A stretch of DNA of 36,436 bases. Source: a virus. Position numbers and translations under genes: made by a program. This document shows positions 6,919 through 32,393 of this stretch, piece by piece. The notes under the pieces were generated by a model. That model made no database searches. It saw only the letters and a list, made by a program, of their open reading frames with translations, and had not been told where the DNA came from. Where the stretch lies: IMG/VR virus record IMGVR_UViG_3300042518_001245, positions 1 through 36,436 of that record; one strand, written 5' to 3'. Numbering within the stretch: the first letter of the stretch is position 1; every line of letters begins with the position of its first letter.

Positions 6919-8441
6919 TAGCTCATGGCCTCTTGTGCGAGAATGTCCGCCCCTACATCGCAAGGCGTCCCCGCTTGGGTCGTGATCGCTAAAGTCAAAA
7001 TGTCGGATCTATCCCCCTTCAAGTTGTTGAAGAGCTGAAAGAGGAAAGCCAAATCAATATCTTGTAAGCCTGAACCACCTGCGGGCAAAGTGAACTTAAA
7101 CACCTTCTCTCCACCAGTCATGGCTGTAGCCGCCACGTCCCTTTCGGCAAACGAAAAAGCAGAACCGACCGAGGTTAATGGCGTCCAAGATGCCCCTGTC
7201 AACACAATCGGCGAAGTGGGTGTACTTAAATAAAGCTCACATTGAGCCAGTGCGGAAGCTGAAATCATCATGCGACGAGGTAAAATTTGCCCTCTGTTGA
7301 TGATCCCAATCGTGTAGTTTTGACCCGCCACTGGAGCCACCGCCAAAGGCCCTTTCGTCACAACATCCTCAAGGGTTAAAACCCCTGTCGTGTTACTCAC
7401 GACACGAGCGGTATACATCACCCCGGCCACCACATAAGACACAAACTTACCGAGCCACTGGTTGACCGTCCACGGTGTACCCGTCGCCGTTAAGCTGGTG
7501 GTCGTCCCTGCGGTAATCGCTGAACTGGCTTGCGTGTATTCAATCGTCCCCATGTTTCTCATACGTAGGGACATAACAGGAAAGCGGGTTGTTGCTGCGG
7601 CGACCGTTCGACGAGGGCTACCTAACGCCATACCGTAAGCATAAGTGAAGCCTCTTTGATCATCAATACCACCGTCCACCGCCACCATGACGCCGTAGTG
7701 TGTCATTGAGTTTGTTGTAGCAACAGCTCCCAAGTTACGTTGCTCATAACGTACTGGTAAGTTACCTGTCCGCGACCACGCTTGTGTCGCCCCTACGCCC
7801 GAAGCATCAAAACTATTGCCTTGACCAAACTCGTGCAAGATAATCGGTTCACCCTTAAGCATAATACCCCAACGAATCGCCCCCGCCCCATACCACGCAT
7901 ACTCAATCCAAACCATTTGAATGCGTTCCCAGCGAATCCCTTCAATGATTCTACGGTCACCATTCCATTCCGTTATAGGTATTCTTCTGTCCGTAGGCAA
8001 GCCTTTGCCATCACTACGAATGACGACAAACATCCCATAAGGGTTGGTTGTCGTGGGGTTGCCCTGCTCAAAAAATACACCGTTAGAATCATCAAGAAAC
8101 CCGACACGTTGCACTTGGTTAGCTTGTGCGGTTCCAAAGTTTACAGCAGTTGCCATTGCCATGGTTTTGCCGGGCTGGTAACGATGATAAGGGCGGGACT
8201 GGCGAATCGTAATGTCCCCATTCGCCGTGGTTAAGTTTAAGTTGACGCCTCCTAATTTAGAGTTATGGGTAATTGTCCCACCTCCCGCAGTAAACTCTTC
8301 CCAGCGCAATGGTTGTTTGCCATACTCAAAGTCAGCATCGTAAATGTTACGAATTTGTGTGACTTTCATGCGTCCTAAAGCATCTCTTAGGCGTCTTGGC
8401 AATACTTCTTTTTCATTTACTTCGGCATTATAAATCGTCAT
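6918..8441 (-). CDS. Putative virion structural or appendage protein, 507 aa
   Basis: A 507-residue, glycine/threonine/alanine-rich protein without transmembrane segments or signal peptide. The composition, with many short beta-like segments (for example the region around residues 290-360 with repeated T/S/V/G-rich strands), suggests a phage structural beta-rich protein such as a tail appendage, receptor-binding or capsid decoration protein. Residues 150-240 contain aromatic-rich segments (WNGDRRIIEGIRWERIQMVW then YAWYGAGAIRWGIML). It is transcribed together with the 146-residue gene upstream and the lysis genes downstream, opposite to the main virion block, which is unusual. I do not recognise a family; the structural call is inference from composition and context. 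Confidence 0.5.
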   Translation of the reverse strand: MTIYNAEVNEKEVLPRRLRDALGRMKVTQIRNIYDADFEYGKQPLRWEEFTAGGGTITHNSKLGGVNLNLTTANGDITIRQSRPYHRYQPGKTMAMATAVNFGTAQANQVQRVGFLDDSNGVFFEQGNPTTTNPYGMFVVIRSDGKGLPTDRRIPITEWNGDRRIIEGIRWERIQMVWIEYAWYGAGAIRWGIMLKGEPIILHEFGQGNSFDASGVGATQAWSRTGNLPVRYEQRNLGAVATTNSMTHYGVMVAVDGGIDDQRGFTYAYGMALGSPRRTVAAATTRFPVMSLRMRNMGTIEYTQASSAITAGTTTSLTATGTPWTVNQWLGKFVSYVVAGVMYTARVVSNTTGVLTLEDVVTKGPLAVAPVAGQNYTIGIINRGQILPRRMMISASALAQCELYLSTPTSPIVLTGASWTPLTSVGSAFSFAERDVAATAMTGGEKVFKFTLPAGGSGLQDIDLAFLFQLFNNLKGDRSDILTLAITTQAGTPCDVGADILAQEAMS

Positions 8442-25488: not shown

Positions 25489-27072
25489 ATGACTGAATGT
25501 AGCCCCGAGTCCATTACAGGAGCCTTGACCGCCACGCTTGAAGCCGTGGGTGTTGATACCATGGAAGCCAAGCTAAGCATGAGCAAGGCACAAAAGCAGG
25601 GCTACACCGCCAAAATTGATGATCTGTTTGATGATGCCTTCCACGACGGAAGCCGACTAAGAGAAGGCGACGACAAGATTATTGACTGGATCGCAGGAAG
25701 CCGTGACAACTTCGACAAGCCAGCCACCAGTGCAGGGCGAGTGATTAACGGCACCAAGTCCTTATTTTACCAGTTTAGAAACGTAAGCCAGTCACTAGGG
25801 GAAGACGTGGTGCAACCCTTTCAAAAGATTATGGAGAAGATAAACGGCGAGTACAAAGACAATCCCGACGGACGCAAGATTTACACCGCCTTGATAAAAG
25901 ACAAAATCAAAGAGCTTGAAAACACACGCCCCGAATTGACAGATTCGCCAGCATGGAGCAGATACAGCAAATGGCTAAAGGACGGCGGAAGCCTGTATCA
26001 CACAGACCACCAAAACGTCTTGGCTAAAGGCGTGAATAACGTGGTGTCGAACATCATTACAGGTAACTTCAACGTGTTCGGCGGAAACTTAATCGAGATG
26101 ATGAAGGTTCCCGTTTTGTACGGAGGCGACGCACTAAAGACGATAAGCCACGCCACCAACTTCACCAAGCGAGACGACCTTGTGAAAGCAGGCGTGTTTC
26201 AAGAAACCGACATCCCCTTCAAAGAAAACCCAGCAGACCCCAAGGTATGGAACGCCCTAAGAAAAGCAAACTATAAAGGCTTACAAACTATACAAGACTT
26301 GACGTTTCTATTTGATGCCCCGATGAAGACGTGGGCGTATGAAGCAGGCAAAGCCAAAGGCGGACATGAGGAAGGGATGCGAGCCGTGCAACGCATCACC
26401 TTTGCCAACCGCCTTGCAGATCCTACTTTTATGCAGATTGACCCAGTGGGACGACTTGGCACACAATTAACGAACTACGGCATGGGAACGGTGCGTTTAT
26501 ACGGTAACTTGTGGCATGAAGTTGCCAGCTTTAAGCAAGACCCCGAACGGGCCAAGCAAGCCGTCGCAGGCTTAATCCTATACCACACATGGCTAGGCTT
26601 GAGTGCAGGCACTTTAAACGCCTTACAAGGGAAGGACTTCAACGAGGCGTTTCAAATAGGAGCCTCACAAGTCCCCCTTTTGTACGGTATCGCCGAAGCC
26701 ATAAGCCCCGAGCTACAGGAAAAGTCCGAACGCAACAAAGGGGCAGGAACTCAACTCACACAGGCGTCAGGTGTAGGACGTTTGTTTGTAGGGCTTGATA
26801 TTGCCAAGAAAACCGTAGACACAACAGGGAGATCACTCAAGAAAGCACACGAAGCCGTGATGAATGACGACCCAGAGACCGCCGTGCGTGAAGCGACACG
26901 AGCTTTAATCAAGTCATCAACGTTTATACCCAGCGTGACAGGTACTAAAGTAGGGCAAGGCGTAAGCGATTGGCTCCTTGATTGGAACGAGGGCGACTTT
27001 GAAGCCGACGAAGCAGGCAAGCAACTCTTAGGACGCACGACGCCGTTTTACAAGGATGAAGTCCAGCCCTAG
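25489..27072 (+). CDS. Internal virion protein, 527 aa
   Basis: The last gene of the plus-strand virion block. The protein is long and mainly helical. At residues 175-210 the segment VNNVVSNIITGNFNVFGGNLIEMMKVPVLYG (in pieces: VVSNIITGNFNVFGGNL then EMMKVPVLYG) is a hydrophobic stretch that could interact with a membrane. A second amphipathic region (TQLTNYGMGTVRLYGNLWHEV, then QAVAGLILYHTWLGLSAGTL) lies at about 330-390. The C-terminus (residues 440-527) is charged. Position after the other ejection genes suggests that it is a third large ejection protein. Its stop overlaps the stop of the convergent terminase large subunit by a shared CTAG. No family name is certain. Confidence 0.65.
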   Translation: MTECSPESITGALTATLEAVGVDTMEAKLSMSKAQKQGYTAKIDDLFDDAFHDGSRLREGDDKIIDWIAGSRDNFDKPATSAGRVINGTKSLFYQFRNVSQSLGEDVVQPFQKIMEKINGEYKDNPDGRKIYTALIKDKIKELENTRPELTDSPAWSRYSKWLKDGGSLYHTDHQNVLAKGVNNVVSNIITGNFNVFGGNLIEMMKVPVLYGGDALKTISHATNFTKRDDLVKAGVFQETDIPFKENPADPKVWNALRKANYKGLQTIQDLTFLFDAPMKTWAYEAGKAKGGHEEGMRAVQRITFANRLADPTFMQIDPVGRLGTQLTNYGMGTVRLYGNLWHEVASFKQDPERAKQAVAGLILYHTWLGLSAGTLNALQGKDFNEAFQIGASQVPLLYGIAEAISPELQEKSERNKGAGTQLTQASGVGRLFVGLDIAKKTVDTTGRSLKKAHEAVMNDDPETAVREATRALIKSSTFIPSVTGTKVGQGVSDWLLDWNEGDFEADEAGKQLLGRTTPFYKDEVQP

Positions 27073-28520
27073 ATGCTGAAATACAGCTCCTTTTGTTCAA
27101 AGGCTTTCTTTTTGATGACATCAATCTTCAAGGGTTCGTAATAGTCCACCATACAGCTTAAGGCGTCAAAGGCGTGATCCGAAAACCACTTTTGACTAGG
27201 GTCTCTTGCTATTTGAGCAGGCGAGGGCAAGTCGTAGTCGTTGCACCCTTCTTTAAAGCGTAGATTCTGAATACATTGAATCGTTCGCTTACAGCGTGGG
27301 TCGAGATACACAAACATTTCACCGTTCGCATTGCAGACCTTGGCTTTGAAGGACTCAATACGGCGACTAATGGCAGGGTTCCCCTTGTTTGTGGCGACTC
27401 TCACATTGTCGTGTCCGTATTCACGACGCAATAGGTTGAGCATCTTGGTATAGAGCGAATTGCGTTCATCCTTTGCCTTGTCTTCCACCGTAACGCCGAC
27501 GTGATTAAAGCCAGCCGACGCATCCCCATTGATGATGATGCCATGCTTGATTTTATCCTTGGGGAACTTCTCAATCAAGGCACGGCACATTTCGTCCACG
27601 TCTGTTTTTTCAAGGCACAGCTCATCAAAGGCGTGAAATTCGCCATTCACACGTTGCACAAAGACCCAACAGCAGGGGTCAAAGTTAAAATCGCAGGTGA
27701 CATGAAGGGGCAACTCCTCCCGATGCTTCAATTCCCTGATGTTGTTTTCGGTAAAGTTATTCACAACCAGCCCCCTTGTTAGGTTACAGTCCTCGCCAAG
27801 CACGAAGACCCTGAACATGTCTTCATCCATGGATTGACGCAGTGTTTCAATGAACGAGTACCCAATGTGTGGGTTTTCAATGGTAGACGCACGACGCTTT
27901 CTAAAGCAAACTTGCACCTTTTCGCCGTTGCGTGGATCGGTAACGGATGTAATCTTAAACGGCGTGTCAAACAGTTCAGCCATCCACCCACGCCGAGCTT
28001 CAGGGTTTGATGTAATAAAGATACGATGCACAGGGAGATTCCCTTGCCTTACACGTCCTATGACTTCAAGCAGGTGTCCCCTTGTCTTGAGTAGAGAACC
28101 TTCATCAACGTGTGCGAACGAGGCGTTGATTGAGCGAATCGATTGCGGATTATCCAATGAACGAAACAACAGTATCGCCCCATTCCAGCACTTGAACGTC
28201 ATCCTCATGTTGGAACGATTAAACGTGTAGTCGATGCCTTCCACAAGCCCGAAGTCATTTAAAAGCTTTTGATATGTGGGTATTGTGGCATCTCTTAGCA
28301 TGGAATAGGAAGGGGCACAGACAAGCCCAGTGACGGCATCCACCTTGTCGCACAATTCTTGGCAAAGCAGAAGACAGCCAAAAGCACCGGGCAAAGTTTT
28401 GCCACTACCATAGCCACCTTGCAAAAAGGCAACATCATGCCCTCCAGTGAAGCCGACAGGCAGTTCAAGCATCCACTTTTGAGCAGGCAACAGGGTAAAC
28501 TCAAAGACATCCTCATTCAT
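27069..28520 (-). CDS. terL: Terminase large subunit (TerL)
   Basis: A 483-residue packaging motor ATPase and nuclease. Walker A is GGYGSGKT (residues 35-42), Walker B is FAHVDEG with Asp139 and Glu140, and a coupling-type SNPE motif (FITSNPEARRG) follows. The C-terminal nuclease has acidic residues in CDFNFDP, NGDASAG and HAFDALSC, fitting the RNase H-like nuclease fold. The start is ATG 28520, in the sequence GAATGAGG overlapping the TerS stop by 8 bases with GGGGAGG upstream; the frame could be extended to 28541 but without a better site. The gene is on the opposite strand from portal and capsid. It converges with the virion block with a 4-base overlap of stops. Confidence 0.9.
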   Translation of the reverse strand: MNEDVFEFTLLPAQKWMLELPVGFTGGHDVAFLQGGYGSGKTLPGAFGCLLLCQELCDKVDAVTGLVCAPSYSMLRDATIPTYQKLLNDFGLVEGIDYTFNRSNMRMTFKCWNGAILLFRSLDNPQSIRSINASFAHVDEGSLLKTRGHLLEVIGRVRQGNLPVHRIFITSNPEARRGWMAELFDTPFKITSVTDPRNGEKVQVCFRKRRASTIENPHIGYSFIETLRQSMDEDMFRVFVLGEDCNLTRGLVVNNFTENNIRELKHREELPLHVTCDFNFDPCCWVFVQRVNGEFHAFDELCLEKTDVDEMCRALIEKFPKDKIKHGIIINGDASAGFNHVGVTVEDKAKDERNSLYTKMLNLLRREYGHDNVRVATNKGNPAISRRIESFKAKVCNANGEMFVYLDPRCKRTIQCIQNLRFKEGCNDYDLPSPAQIARDPSQKWFSDHAFDALSCMVDYYEPLKIDVIKKKAFEQKELYFSI

Positions 28521-28974
28521 CAAGCGTCGCCTCCCCTTCAAATTCGAGAGGAACCGACGCCACGTTTGATATGTTCAAATTATTGCAAATGACTTTCCTT
28601 GAGAGTGTTTCTTCAACGCCTATTTCAAGTTTATCTTTCCAACCGCACAGGTTTTTCATCTTGAAGATCCACACAATGGTGTTAAAGTTCTCAATCGCCC
28701 CATTCATGGCGTCGTTTGCAAGGTCTTCTAGGTAGTATTGAACGCAGGCGTCGCCTATCGCCTTGGCTTCTTTAAACTCCTCGTGCATCTTCATCCAGTT
28801 GTAAATTGTTTGCTTGCTTACACGGATTTTACCAGCAAATGCCTCTACAGAAAGCCCTTGTGCCATGTGGTTGATGAGCATCTCGCAGTATTTGACATCA
28901 TAACTGGTTGCCCTTGATTGTTTAGAGCCGAGAGGATGATGCACAATCTCTGTTTCATACTTTTGAGGCTCCAT
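28513..28974 (-). CDS. terS: Terminase small subunit (TerS)
   Basis: The 153-residue protein begins with a basic stretch, followed by a helix-turn-helix at about residues 25-65 (YCEMLINHMAQGLSVEAFAGKIRVSKQTIYNWMKMHEEF in pieces: LSVEAFAGKIRVSKQTIYNW), typical of small terminase subunits that recognise the packaging site. A helical oligomerisation region follows (KAIGDACVQYYLEDLANDAM) and a polar C-terminus. It starts with GAAGGTATTAA upstream of ATG 28974 and overlaps TerL. It is co-transcribed from the promoter at 29897-29925 together with the upstream pseudo-glycosyltransferase. Confidence 0.85.
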   Translation of the reverse strand: MEPQKYETEIVHHPLGSKQSRATSYDVKYCEMLINHMAQGLSVEAFAGKIRVSKQTIYNWMKMHEEFKEAKAIGDACVQYYLEDLANDAMNGAIENFNTIVWIFKMKNLCGWKDKLEIGVEETLSRKVICNNLNISNVASVPLEFEGEATLDE

Positions 28975-28990
28975 TTAATACCTTCACTTT

Positions 28991-29857
28991 TCAATCGGCA
29001 TTTAAACAGTAAGCAGGCATCCATTCCCCCGCCCACTTTTGCGGATTCAGTTCAAGGGCTTTTAGGTAAAAGACTTGTGCCTTCTTGTAATCACCAGTAA
29101 GATTACTCACCAGCTTAAGAATAGTATAGGCTTCGGGGCGTTCGGGATTGAGTTTACAGGCTTTTAACGCCCAGTATTTCGCACAGTACGTGGCTTCAAG
29201 GGTATTTTCAGAAAGGAAGGCAAGGCAGGCGTGGAGATATTGAGCATAGGCGACGTGTGCTTTTGATTCGTGAAATTGAGCCTTTGCTAAGTGCATCAAG
29301 GGCGAACGCTTAGGCGGTTCTAAGGACTGAATAGCCAGCGAGCAGGGGCGAGGATTCGGCGGATTCAAGAGCCGTTTACCCCAGTTGTTTTGAATTAAGC
29401 CATGCTCCCCCCAGTGGTGACAGCGTGCTTGAAATAAACGCAGTTCCGGCTTTGATGATACCCCTTGCTTGACTTGACAGACCCCCGACGTGGCTTCTAT
29501 GGCATTTAAGTCTTGCACCGCTTGCTTGAGTGCGACGCTATCAAAGAGAGGCGTTTCACCTTGCTTAAGATGCAAGACCCAACGACAGGAAAGTTGAGAG
29601 ATGCCAAGACTCAACAGAGCGTTTTCACTTAATGCCTTGCGACGCTCAAAGAGCAAATCCGCCCCAATATCACAGAGGGCGGACGATTCTTGCTTACTTA
29701 ACGGCTTGTTATGAATCACCACAAGCTGATGAACGGCGTTTAAAACATCAAGCGATTCTAGCCACTCAATAAGCCCTTTTCGCCACACTAAGACCAGCCC
29801 AATTCGTTTAAGGTTTCGTGCGTCCATGCACGCCTTAGGGTTAAGGTTCAGTGCCAT
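28991..29857 (-). CDS. Degenerate GT-A glycosyltransferase-like protein with C-terminal TPRs
   Basis: The 288-residue product has two parts. Residues about 15-130 parallel a family 2 glycosyltransferase: KRIGLVLVWRKGLIEWLESL fits the first strand and helix, VHQLVVIHNKPLS fits the second strand where the D-T-G-S-T-D of active enzymes is expected, and CRWVLHLKQGETPL fits the strand where D-A-D-E is expected. The key acidic residues are replaced (HNKPLS, LKQGE), so it is probably catalytically inactive. Residues about 205-275 contain tetratricopeptide-like repeats (YWALKACKLNPERPEAYTIL and GDYKKAQVFYLKALELNP). It is the first gene of the terminase operon, 16 bases before TerS. Role unknown; a scaffold, a nuclear-like TPR binder or a decayed enzyme are options. 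The GT reading is by eye and needs structural support. Confidence 0.5.
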   Translation of the reverse strand: MALNLNPKACMDARNLKRIGLVLVWRKGLIEWLESLDVLNAVHQLVVIHNKPLSKQESSALCDIGADLLFERRKALSENALLSLGISQLSCRWVLHLKQGETPLFDSVALKQAVQDLNAIEATSGVCQVKQGVSSKPELRLFQARCHHWGEHGLIQNNWGKRLLNPPNPRPCSLAIQSLEPPKRSPLMHLAKAQFHESKAHVAYAQYLHACLAFLSENTLEATYCAKYWALKACKLNPERPEAYTILKLVSNLTGDYKKAQVFYLKALELNPQKWAGEWMPAYCLNAD

Positions 29858-30082: not shown

Positions 30083-30472
30083 TCAATCATAAAACCCAGA
30101 AGAAGCAGAATTTCGTCTTAATGACTTAGTAATTTCTTCTTGCCTTACCCTTTGTTGCTCCTGTTCAATCCGATCAAGTTGTTGTTTTTGTTGTTGTTGT
30201 TGTTGTTTTCGTTGTGACTCCTCAAACCAATCATCATTCGATGATGCAAGTGGAGACACTACGACTGGAGCTGATACAACTGGAGCAGGCTCACAAGTGG
30301 AGGTTGGCGTGGTGGGTAGCGACTCTACAAGTGCTTCAATGCTAATCAACTTCACTATAATGTCAGCAGTATCTGTAGACGTGGTTTCTCTAATATCCGC
30401 CAAGTACCACAAAAAACAGGCATTAAAAAGCAACTGAATAGTGATGCAGACAATCACAGTATTTTTATTCAT
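30083..30472 (-). CDS. Membrane-anchored Gln-rich protein, 129 aa
   Basis: A single N-terminal transmembrane or signal-anchor helix (VIVCITIQLLFNACFLWYL, residues 6-24) is followed by a Thr/Pro/Val-rich segment (residues 45-80, with VVSAPVVVSP) and a polar Gln/Arg/Glu C-terminus (residues 85-129, with QQQQQQKQQ from a repeated TTG/CAA tract). Topology resembles spanin-like or lysis accessory proteins: anchor, flexible linker, charged helix. No lipobox near the N-terminus that would suggest an outer membrane spanin; a Cys at residue 20 is not in a lipobox context. It overlaps the upstream membrane protein gene by 8 bases. Role unknown, possibly superinfection exclusion or lysis. Confidence 0.55.
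   Translation of the reverse strand: MNKNTVIVCITIQLLFNACFLWYLADIRETTSTDTADIIVKLISIEALVESLPTTPTSTCEPAPVVSAPVVVSPLASSNDDWFEESQRKQQQQQQKQQLDRIEQEQQRVRQEEITKSLRRNSASSGFYD
30178..30214. repeat. TTG (CAA) trinucleotide tract
   Basis: A near-continuous tract of TTG units with one TTTTTG and one TTTTCG interruption (about 30178-30214) encodes poly-glutamine in the 129-residue membrane protein. Such tracts can change length by slippage and so could alter the protein. Confidence 0.85.
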
Positions 30473-30773
30473 TGCTTAACCCTTTTTTAGATTTGTGTCT
30501 TTTTTGTTCAGCACTATACTGCCAACAAACAAGCCAAGCCCCAAACAATAAAAAACCCAGTATCGTTGTCCCATGTTCATCTCCAAACTGTTGATCAAGA
30601 ACAGTAACCACCCCCAAGAATGGCAATCCAATCCAAATAGGGGTTGTTATGACTGCAATACTTTCCCAAAAACGATCCTGTGAATAGCTTCGCTTTATAT
30701 AATAAAAAAAAGCAAAAGCAACGCACCCCAAAATCAAAAAGCAAACAACCGTTCCAAACATTGGCCAGTCCAT
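30465..30773 (-). CDS. Membrane protein with about three transmembrane helices, 102 aa
   Basis: Hydrophobic segments at about residues 4-25 (MFGTVVCFLILGCVAFAFFYY), 38-60 (AVITTPIWIGLPFLGVVTVL) and 68-86 (TTILGFLLFGAWLVCW) give probably three TM helices, with a basic C-terminus (RHKSKKG). A holin, exclusion protein or other membrane factor is possible. The start has AAAGGATTG upstream. It is the first gene after the promoter at 30933-30962 and overlaps the Gln-rich protein gene. Family unknown. Confidence 0.55.
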   Translation of the reverse strand: MDWPMFGTVVCFLILGCVAFAFFYYIKRSYSQDRFWESIAVITTPIWIGLPFLGVVTVLDQQFGDEHGTTILGFLLFGAWLVCWQYSAEQKRHKSKKGLSNE

Positions 30774-30908
30774 ATTTCAATCCTTTTTCCTCTACTCGGC
30801 ACGTCCAAGCCGTCCCATTATAACCGAATCCCATCACTTTCGCAAATGCCAGTGCCAAAAGTGCCAAAACTCAAACTCCTCCAAATGATGTATTCAACAA
30901 ATAAATGC

Positions 30909-30937
30909 TTGTTTTAAATAAACAAGCTTGTTAATAT
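30909..30937 (+). promoter_or_regulatory. Sigma70-like promoter, plus strand
   Basis: TTGTTT (30909-30914) and TAATAT (30932-30937) are separated by 17 bases. It would start transcription near 30944, giving a transcript ending at the terminator at 31046-31081. The -35 hexamer overlaps a CTTGTTT heptamer. Confidence 0.5.
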
Positions 30938-30962
30938 AGCTATATCGGTTGAAACAAGTCAA
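30933..30962 (-). promoter_or_regulatory. Sigma70-like promoter, minus strand, for the small membrane operon
   Basis: On the minus strand TTGACT (30962-30957) is followed after 18 bases by TATATT (30938-30933). It would drive the two membrane protein genes at 30773-30083. It overlaps the plus-strand promoter's -10 region, so the two should compete, and heptamers lie on both sides. Confidence 0.55.
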
Positions 30963-31081
30963 CCCAAATCTTTAAAAACGATTCCAAACAAGTTTTTTAT
31001 AGCCTTTGCTCCTTAGGGAGTAAGGAATTGTTTTTAAGATTTAAATCACCTGTCTACAAACGTTTACAGGTGACTTTTTTT
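30944..31081 (+). ncRNA. Candidate small RNA, about 138 nt
   Basis: This untranslated stretch lies between a plausible promoter and a strong intrinsic terminator. It can fold into a 5' hairpin GGTTGA-AACAAG-TCAACC (30947-30964), a nested hairpin CCTTtgCTCC-TTAG-GGAGtAAGG (31003-31025), and the terminator hairpin. There is no credible ORF. The 5' loop and the segment at 30986-30992 carry the AAACAAG heptamer. It could regulate lysogeny or the flanking genes in the manner of short phage immunity RNAs such as those of P4, but no sequence family is recognised and expression is unproven. Confidence 0.45.
31046..31081 (+). terminator. Intrinsic terminator of the candidate small RNA
   Basis: TCACCTGT (31046-31053) pairs with ACAGGTGA (31066-31073) across a 12-base loop and is followed by C and seven Ts (31074-31081). 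It is one of the strongest terminators in the genome and has no upstream plus-strand protein gene. Confidence 0.8.
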
Positions 31082-31119
31082 AAGCCGATATTGTTCTTAG
31101 CCAATTGAGATAAAAGCGA

Positions 31120-31203
31120 GGCTGGATGTGGCAACATCCAGCCCCACCAAGAGGAGATTGATGTCCCTCTTGGCTCAATGTACTAAAGAGACTAGCACAT
31201 TGA
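31120..31203. other. Three consecutive perfect hairpins downstream of integrase
   Basis: Hairpin 1: GGCTGGATGT-GGCA-ACATCCAGCC (31120-31143). Hairpin 2: CCAAGAGG, 11-base loop, CCTCTTGG (31147-31173). Hairpin 3: TCAATGT, 15-base loop, ACATTGA (31175-31203). Each stem is perfect and they are spaced by 1-3 bases. On the minus strand they form the 3' region of the integrase transcript, with hairpin 1 followed by TCGCTTTTATC, which could terminate it. On the plus strand hairpin 2 holds a ribosome binding site. The exact role is unclear. Confidence 0.7.
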
Positions 31204-31214
31204 CAATTTCATAA
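31161..31214 (+). CDS. Possible 17-aa leader peptide
   Basis: ATG at 31161 follows GAGGAG (31151-31156) by only 4 bases and encodes MSLLAQCTKETSTLTIS before TAA. The ribosome binding site and start codon lie within hairpin 2, and the end overlaps hairpin 3. It may be a leader peptide sensing translation or a chance ORF; a downstream plus-strand gene is lacking, so this is weak. Confidence 0.2.
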   Translation: MSLLAQCTKETSTLTIS

Positions 31215-31328
31215 AAAACTTTTGGTTGATTTTGGCAAAAAGTGTATCTAAAGCCTTGGCATTCGGCGTTTGAATGGGGGGCTTAAGAAAGAGATATTGC
31301 ATTTAAAAGGGCTTGAAAACAGGCTAAA

Positions 31329-32345
31329 TCAAAAGCAACTAGGCAAGGCTCTCACAAATCGCACTGCATCATGTGCATCGGCTTCAACGTAAAGCTGGGT
31401 CGTCTTTAGTGACGTATGCCCAAGCAGTACAGAAACCATCGTCAACGGTACATTGTGTTGTACCCATTGCGTCGCACAAGTTCGTCTTAAGTCATGAAAG
31501 TTAAGAGGAAACGGCACTAGCTTTCTTAACCGTCTTAGGGCAATTCTAGCCCCTTGATAGGTGAGATTGTTAAACAGTGTTTGACCTGTGGCGTGGAACT
31601 TCAGAGTCCACTCCAAAACAATCGCTTTCATTGATTCCGACAACACCGTGATGCGTGGCTTGTTACCCTTCCCTAATACCGATATTGTGCCTTGTTCAAA
31701 GTTTAAATGTTCAAGGCGAATCGCCAGTGCTTCGCTTATACGCAGACCACTGGTGAGCAGAAGACTTAGAAGCAGGCGCATCCTCTCTTTGTAAAAGGGG
31801 AGGGTGCAATGCTCATCTAAAGCTTTAAGCAGTTGTGAAACATCGTCTTGCTTGAGCTTATTTCGCTTAGCAGGGGTGAACCGTTTCGGACGCAAGCTTT
31901 CAATGCCACCTAGTGAAACGTTAAACCCTTGCGCATTAAGCCACTTGGCAAAGCAGATGAAGGCTTTGCGCATGTTGTCTTTCAAGGAATAATGACAGCC
32001 GTCGGCTCCGATATTGTCGAGAGCTTGCTTCAGCGTGTCTACGGTGAACGACTTCAACGACGGCACGACCTCGCTATGCTTCCAAAAAGAACGGATGAAC
32101 CCTTTGTAGCCCCGAATGGTTTTGGCACTGTACGGCTTAGGGTATCCCTTGCCAGTGCTTAAATCATCAAGCCATTGGTGCATCAAAGCATCAACTTCGT
32201 GTTCAGCTGGAAGATCAAGCATCCAAACATCTTTATCTTTGTAGCCTTTCACCTTGTGGGCCTTGTGCTTTCCTTGATAAATTTGTTTCTTCAAGGCAGG
32301 CATCGAGACCCCAAGAACAGCGGAAGCTTCTTTTAACGTAAGCAT
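31329..32345 (-). CDS. int: Tyrosine recombinase integrase with N-terminal HTH
   Basis: The 338-residue product catalyses site-specific insertion and excision. The catalytic residues of the tyrosine recombinase family are visible: Arg202 in TSGLRISEAL, Lys226 in LGKGNKPR, His284 and Arg287 in HDLRRT, His310 in LLGHTS and Tyr319 in TTQLYV. Residues about 60-165 form a core-binding SAM-like domain. Unusually, residues 1-40 (LTLKEASAVLGVSMPALKKQIYQGKHKAHKV) resemble an excisionase-like MerR/HTH_17 domain fused at the N-terminus. Start ATG 32345 follows AAAGGAG; an in-frame extension to 32447 lacks support. It lies beside the attP at 32474, with direct repeats between that could be arm sites. Confidence 0.92.
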   Translation of the reverse strand: MLTLKEASAVLGVSMPALKKQIYQGKHKAHKVKGYKDKDVWMLDLPAEHEVDALMHQWLDDLSTGKGYPKPYSAKTIRGYKGFIRSFWKHSEVVPSLKSFTVDTLKQALDNIGADGCHYSLKDNMRKAFICFAKWLNAQGFNVSLGGIESLRPKRFTPAKRNKLKQDDVSQLLKALDEHCTLPFYKERMRLLLSLLLTSGLRISEALAIRLEHLNFEQGTISVLGKGNKPRITVLSESMKAIVLEWTLKFHATGQTLFNNLTYQGARIALRRLRKLVPFPLNFHDLRRTCATQWVQHNVPLTMVSVLLGHTSLKTTQLYVEADAHDAVRFVRALPSCF

Positions 32346-32393
32346 GGTTTGCTCCTTTGTTTGAATAAACGAACAAAGGATCAAGCGATTGTT

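Follow-up and report, generated by a model that had tools for sequence, protein, structure and literature searches.

The window, by which we mean the whole stretch of DNA that was analysed (36,436 nt), is a virus record from IMG/VR; it has a terminal repeat of 127 bp, which argues that the genome is probably complete and was assembled as a circle. No annotated phage record was similar to it at the DNA level; its portal resembles those of cyanobacterial phages, a weak hint on the host. Two overlapping, opposed promoters and a predicted non-coding RNA, referred to here as RNA1, lie between two small membrane-type genes, for whose products family searches gave no confident family, and the gene of a tyrosine integrase (int). 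The N-terminal segment of the integrase (31329-32345, minus) is weakly excisionase-like (HTH_17). The features of the locus are as follows.

27069-29857, minus strand: terminase genes and a TPR-like protein
30083-30773, minus strand: two small membrane-type genes, downstream of the promoter at 30845-30817
30817-30845, minus strand: membrane-gene promoter TTGCGA-17-TATAAT (CGGTTATAATGGG), conserved
30871-30907, plus strand: conserved DNA immediately upstream of the promoter, near-invariant in five homologues
30920-30926, promoter spacer: invariant heptamer AAACAAG, at the same offset in all five homologues
30921-30932, promoter spacer: dyad AACAAGCTTGTT, imperfect in the relatives
30929-30937, plus strand: extended -10 of the rightward promoter, TG-T-TAATAT, with the TG present in all five homologues
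30933-30962, minus strand: leftward promoter TTGACT-18-TATATT, predicted start 30926
30944-31081, plus strand: RNA1, a predicted non-coding RNA of ~138 nt, from its fold and five homologues
30947-30964, plus strand: RNA1 hairpin 1, GGUUGA-AACAAG-UCAACC, invariant in three homologues
30966-31042, plus strand: RNA1 hairpin 2, a long stem with a 5′ bulge containing AACAAG and an apical hairpin
31046-31081, plus strand: RNA1 hairpin 3 and a T7 tract, an intrinsic terminator
31205-31105, minus strand: RNA2, three hairpins after the int stop codon, the last of them terminator-like
31329 to the ATG at 32345, minus strand: int, to the right of RNA1

Searches with the portal and TerL led to three related contigs (L003/L004, L002/L006 and L005). 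By DNA comparison, 30871-31896 is conserved in L004 and 30866-31333, in pieces, in L006; the contig of L005 had no match to the RNA1 region. A gapped pattern combining the hairpin 1 loop and the terminator gave two further homologues, L015 and L017. Two other hits, L016 and L018, were rejected on reading as chance matches to the pattern. Three of the five RNA1 homologues are nearly identical in the RNA, and the set therefore holds effectively three independent versions of stem 2. Only the window and the contig of L004 yielded an integrase, and the other three contigs may be fragments. At the L015 and L017 loci, no DNA similarity to the head genes of the window is seen and the proteins encoded on that side are different, which indicates that the module is retained as its surroundings are exchanged. 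The int product is only 74% identical to that of L004, against 96% for the nearby TPR protein.

The overlap of two divergent promoters, as described in the original prediction, was confirmed, and the same architecture is present in all five homologues. The leftward promoter, with TTGACT (30962-30957) and TATATT (30938-30933) separated by an 18-bp spacer, matches the consensus at 10 of 12 positions and heads the list of promoter-like sites between 29500 and 32500, in which a bare match proves little (11 sites found, 4.6 expected in shuffles). The rightward promoter, TTGTTT-17-TAATAT, matches at 7 of 12 positions, which is under the threshold of the scan, and its -10 is of the extended type, with TGT preceding the hexamer; the -35 hexamer is not conserved across the four relatives. 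The opposing -10 hexamers share five of six bases by overlap, and the starts, predicted rather than mapped at 30944 rightward and 30926 leftward, are 18 bp apart. In a crude sigma-70 scoring, with approximate weights that served only for comparing homologues, no minus-strand site outscored the minus -10 position in any of the five; on the plus strand, the plus -10 position came first in the four relatives and second in the window.

Among bacterial bidirectional promoters, 18 bp is the commonest separation of starts, and the sequences are pseudo-symmetrical (2026 study, PMC12825309). The site in the window shares with those described in E. coli and other bacteria by Warman, Grainger and colleagues (PMC12825309) the near-symmetric, overlapping, opposed -10 elements and the commonest spacing of starts, but it is predicted only, lies in a phage and has a structured, terminated RNA as one product. 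Judged from its sequence, the site looks like one bidirectional promoter of ordinary architecture, and the leftward transcript would be, at least in part, a by-product of the near-symmetric -10 sequence. The conserved DNA at 30871-30907 is a possible UP element or regulator site. The last codons of an ORF (TPPNDVFNK and stop) also fall in this segment; the ORF is intact only in L004, and its start codon is absent from the window. In L004, the ORF occupies 7058-7342 (minus) and encodes 94 aa; its last ten codons (TPPFDVFYK and stop) are the start of the conserved module, and nothing but this tail is left in the window, L006, L015 and L017.

The RNA expected from the rightward start is strongly structured. 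The stretch 30940-31086 folds at -45.9 kcal/mol (z -7.2), and none of 200 shuffles was as good; the folds of two homologues have z-scores of -5.8 and -5.2. When 1038 overlapping 140-nt stretches were scanned across the genome on both strands, RNA1 (plus, z -6.75) ranked second after RNA2 (minus, z -7.8), whereas the complement of the RNA1 stretch folded less well (z -3.6). The three-hairpin fold is common to all five homologues. RNAalifold on the three types found double-sided changes in 7 of 32 pairs, with two cells not pairing. The sequence of hairpin 2 differs among the window, L004 and L006 types, and when arms were swapped, each 5′ arm paired best with its own 3′ arm (for stem 2 of the window, -18.2 kcal/mol with its own arm vs -5.6 and -4.7 with foreign arms). 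In hairpin 3, the arms are UCACCUGU/ACAGGUGA vs UCACCUCU/AGAGGUGA in relatives, a compensatory change of G-C to C-G, and seven T follow directly, on the plus strand only. Hairpin 1 contains the -35 of the leftward promoter. L015 and L017 carry TCGACT instead of TTGACT at this position, which turns a U-A pair into U-G, paired in RNA1 and unpaired on the opposite strand. As hairpin 1 stays paired while the minus -35 is altered, the RNA appears to be held more tightly than the leftward promoter. The purpose of an apparent switch can in this way be read by comparison, from one base change that in two relatives spares the RNA hairpin and damages the opposing -35.

No ATG occurs in RNA1 in any of the five homologues, and the lengths of 138, 142 and 124 nt do not keep a frame. 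Against Rfam 15, no family scored above its gathering score, and a permissive search gave chance-level matches only; the near-hits (rivX, PyrR and others) were far under their gathering scores and were taken as chance. RNA1 thus combines a conserved structure with compensatory changes, an intrinsic terminator and no conserved frame, and on this comparative evidence it is very probably a real non-coding RNA gene. The homologues document the predicted fold, its compensatory changes, its strand asymmetry and its persistence in changing contexts; from them we infer transcription, the start sites and a non-coding action. That the plus promoter leads to a terminated RNA had been proposed before, and the structure of this RNA is well supported. 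It is not incidental, as that proposal implied, since selection preserved it.

The original prediction also had the minus promoter lead to the two membrane genes. It does lie upstream of them, but a separate conserved promoter at 30845-30817 belongs to these genes. In the window, 103 bp separate this promoter from the leftward start; in L004, L006 and L015 the distance is 576-1180 bp, and the stretch between them differs in sequence among the relatives. Measured from the module, it exceeds that of the window by ~1.1 kb in L004 and by 0.5 kb in L006. Short tandem repeats (TTTGCTAGAG and CCATAA types) occupy ~2030-2150 of L006, directly upstream of the module in the swapped stretch, and similar ones occur in L015 and L017. 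A minus-strand leader ORF (TTG at 30867, 90 aa) was set aside, as no frame is conserved and no family matched; its Shine-Dalgarno-like GGAGGAG is conserved.

The cluster of heptamers across the promoters holds up as noticed before, with four exact copies of AAACAAG (30908-, 30920+, 30952+ and 30986+) and one near-copy, TAACAAG at 30927-, with one mismatch. No other 7-mer has four copies within 85 bp in the window, barring a CAA-type simple repeat (30178-30207), and four copies of any non-trivial 7-mer arose in 0.45% of trials under a local Markov model; the genome-wide total of 15 AAACAAG is not in excess. Exact conservation in all four relatives is limited to the 30920 and 30952 copies, which are always 32 bp apart. 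The former corresponds to predicted nucleotides 1-7 of the leftward transcript, and the latter forms the loop of RNA1 hairpin 1.

This arrangement had suggested a phage switch, in which a repressor, perhaps an XRE protein, would act on the heptamers to choose between leftward transcription of membrane proteins and rightward transcription of the RNA. The clustering of heptamers beyond chance, the spacing of the two invariant copies by three helical turns (32 bp), the mutual exclusion built into overlapping promoters and the two XRE-type (HTH_3) proteins encoded in the window (3099 and 35348) would suit such a switch, although both XRE genes are far from the divergent promoters. Repeated short motifs spanning divergent promoters are indeed found in lambda-type CI/Cro systems. 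In contrast to these, the site has no repressor gene on either side, its neighbours being membrane proteins and int, and the earlier observation that a CI-like repressor is missing nearby extends to zero Peptidase_S24 matches in six records. Three of the five heptamers, that at 30908 among them, are not conserved, so the motifs are not kept as a set; the second invariant copy is accounted for by the hairpin 1 loop, the membrane genes have a promoter of their own that is remote in the relatives, and one of the products is an RNA. The layout, moreover, equals that of ordinary bidirectional promoters (PMC12825309). The site does not look like a CI/Cro-like lysis/lysogeny switch, the repressor-operator reading was dropped because the heptamers are unconserved as a set and no repressor is linked, and repressor control of this kind is unlikely.

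We favour, as reasonably probable, a bidirectional promoter whose conserved purpose is RNA1, a stand-alone phage regulatory RNA most likely acting in trans, even though the plus promoter is weak by its hexamers and the minus promoter is stronger. A competitor on the RNA side is immunity or antisense control, in which RNA1 would pair with a phage transcript as P4 CI RNA, P1/P7 C4 RNA and OOP do. The missing CI-type repressor would fit, and UUUGCUCCUU in the apical hairpin (31004-31014) matches the int Shine-Dalgarno AAGGAGCAAA with 10 perfect nucleotides at 32348-32357 (minus), just before the int ATG. This match is confined to the window and lost in L004, and pairing with int was rejected as a candidate; RNA1 is kept in three contigs where no int was found, no other complementarity is conserved, and chance alone should yield about ten matches of 10 nt. 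Antisense control is therefore doubtful. The element might also act as DNA, with palindromes that form part of attP, of an origin of replication or of some other recombination site next to int. The adjacent integrase gene, the wealth of palindromes and the conservation of the neighbouring 31225-31333 speak for this, but the T7 tract and the G-U pairs are valid on a single strand only, the module is kept where no int was found, and compensatory changes in a freely drifting stem ill suit a sequence-specific integrase site, all of which makes a DNA element improbable.

Hairpin 1, GGTTGAAAC, has what we take to be a resemblance to the end of many CRISPR repeats, so that an RNA anti-CRISPR (Racr) mimicking a repeat of the host was considered. 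Phages are known to carry solitary repeat RNAs (PMC10651486). The exact 18-mer, however, occurs once each in two genome contigs (L009 and L010) and, in the genomes scanned, never as an array, which is about the chance level (about seven chance hits are expected in the collection), and mimicry leaves the long stem 2 unexplained; we regard it as very improbable. A self-contained RNA toggle, in which the two transcripts of the promoter, excluding each other in time, would also pair with each other in trans and so make a switch that needs no repressor protein, is likewise given little credence. The predicted 5′ end of the leftward transcript, CUUGUUU, is the exact complement of AAACAAG in RNA1 hairpin 1. 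All five homologues preserve this match, but in AT-rich DNA a match of 7 nt carries only modest weight.

If RNA1 is a real non-coding RNA gene, action as a trans-acting regulator is the somewhat likelier case. In our working model, the overlapping -10 elements with starts 18 bp apart would drive expression of the ~138-nt RNA1, hairpins 1 and 3 would protect its ends, and the AACAA segments exposed in the hairpin 1 loop and the hairpin 2 bulge would act in trans by pairing with an mRNA or by binding an RNA-binding protein of the host; both the trans action and the role of these segments are guesses. A search of the phages' own genomes for complementarity to RNA1 gave no conserved target. The exposed AACAAG repeats and the U7 tail are features that RNA1 shares with Hfq-binding small RNAs (A-R-N motif, PMC4104026), and the AACAA(G) segments would fit an A-R-N type Hfq contact or a pairing seed, a resemblance that offers a lead. 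Small RNAs encoded by phages include VpdS of VP882, PreS and OOP of lambda, and sar and sas of P22 (review PMC12197685). RNA1 is like them in being short, with a predicted promoter of its own and an intrinsic terminator, but it has no sequence or family match and is not antisense to an annotated gene. A promoter curiosity has thus defined a candidate RNA family absent from Rfam, which related uncultured phages have kept through swaps of head genes, integrase and membrane genes. Parts retained through such gene swapping usually matter to the phage. If its trans action is true, RNA1 would join the small number of phage RNAs with a known effect on the expression of host or phage genes.

Two further conserved structures lie between RNA1 and int. 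RNA2 (z -7.85) is the best-folding stretch of the whole window, and comparison with L004 showed six double-changed pairs and none broken. It probably represents the 3′ terminus of the int transcript, does not belong to RNA1, and is possibly a second small RNA or retroregulator. The adjoining 31225-31333 is non-coding and conserved in all five homologues with or without int; it has three double-changed pairs, none broken, and its U-G pairs favour the plus strand. We consider it a candidate for a second plus-strand RNA or attP. Among the terminase genes, the large-subunit gene of L004 (9971-11878) has an in-frame insert of ~143 codons in Walker A, between GGYG and SGKT. The insert is absent from the copy in the window and recurs in L005, and it looks like a mini-intein.
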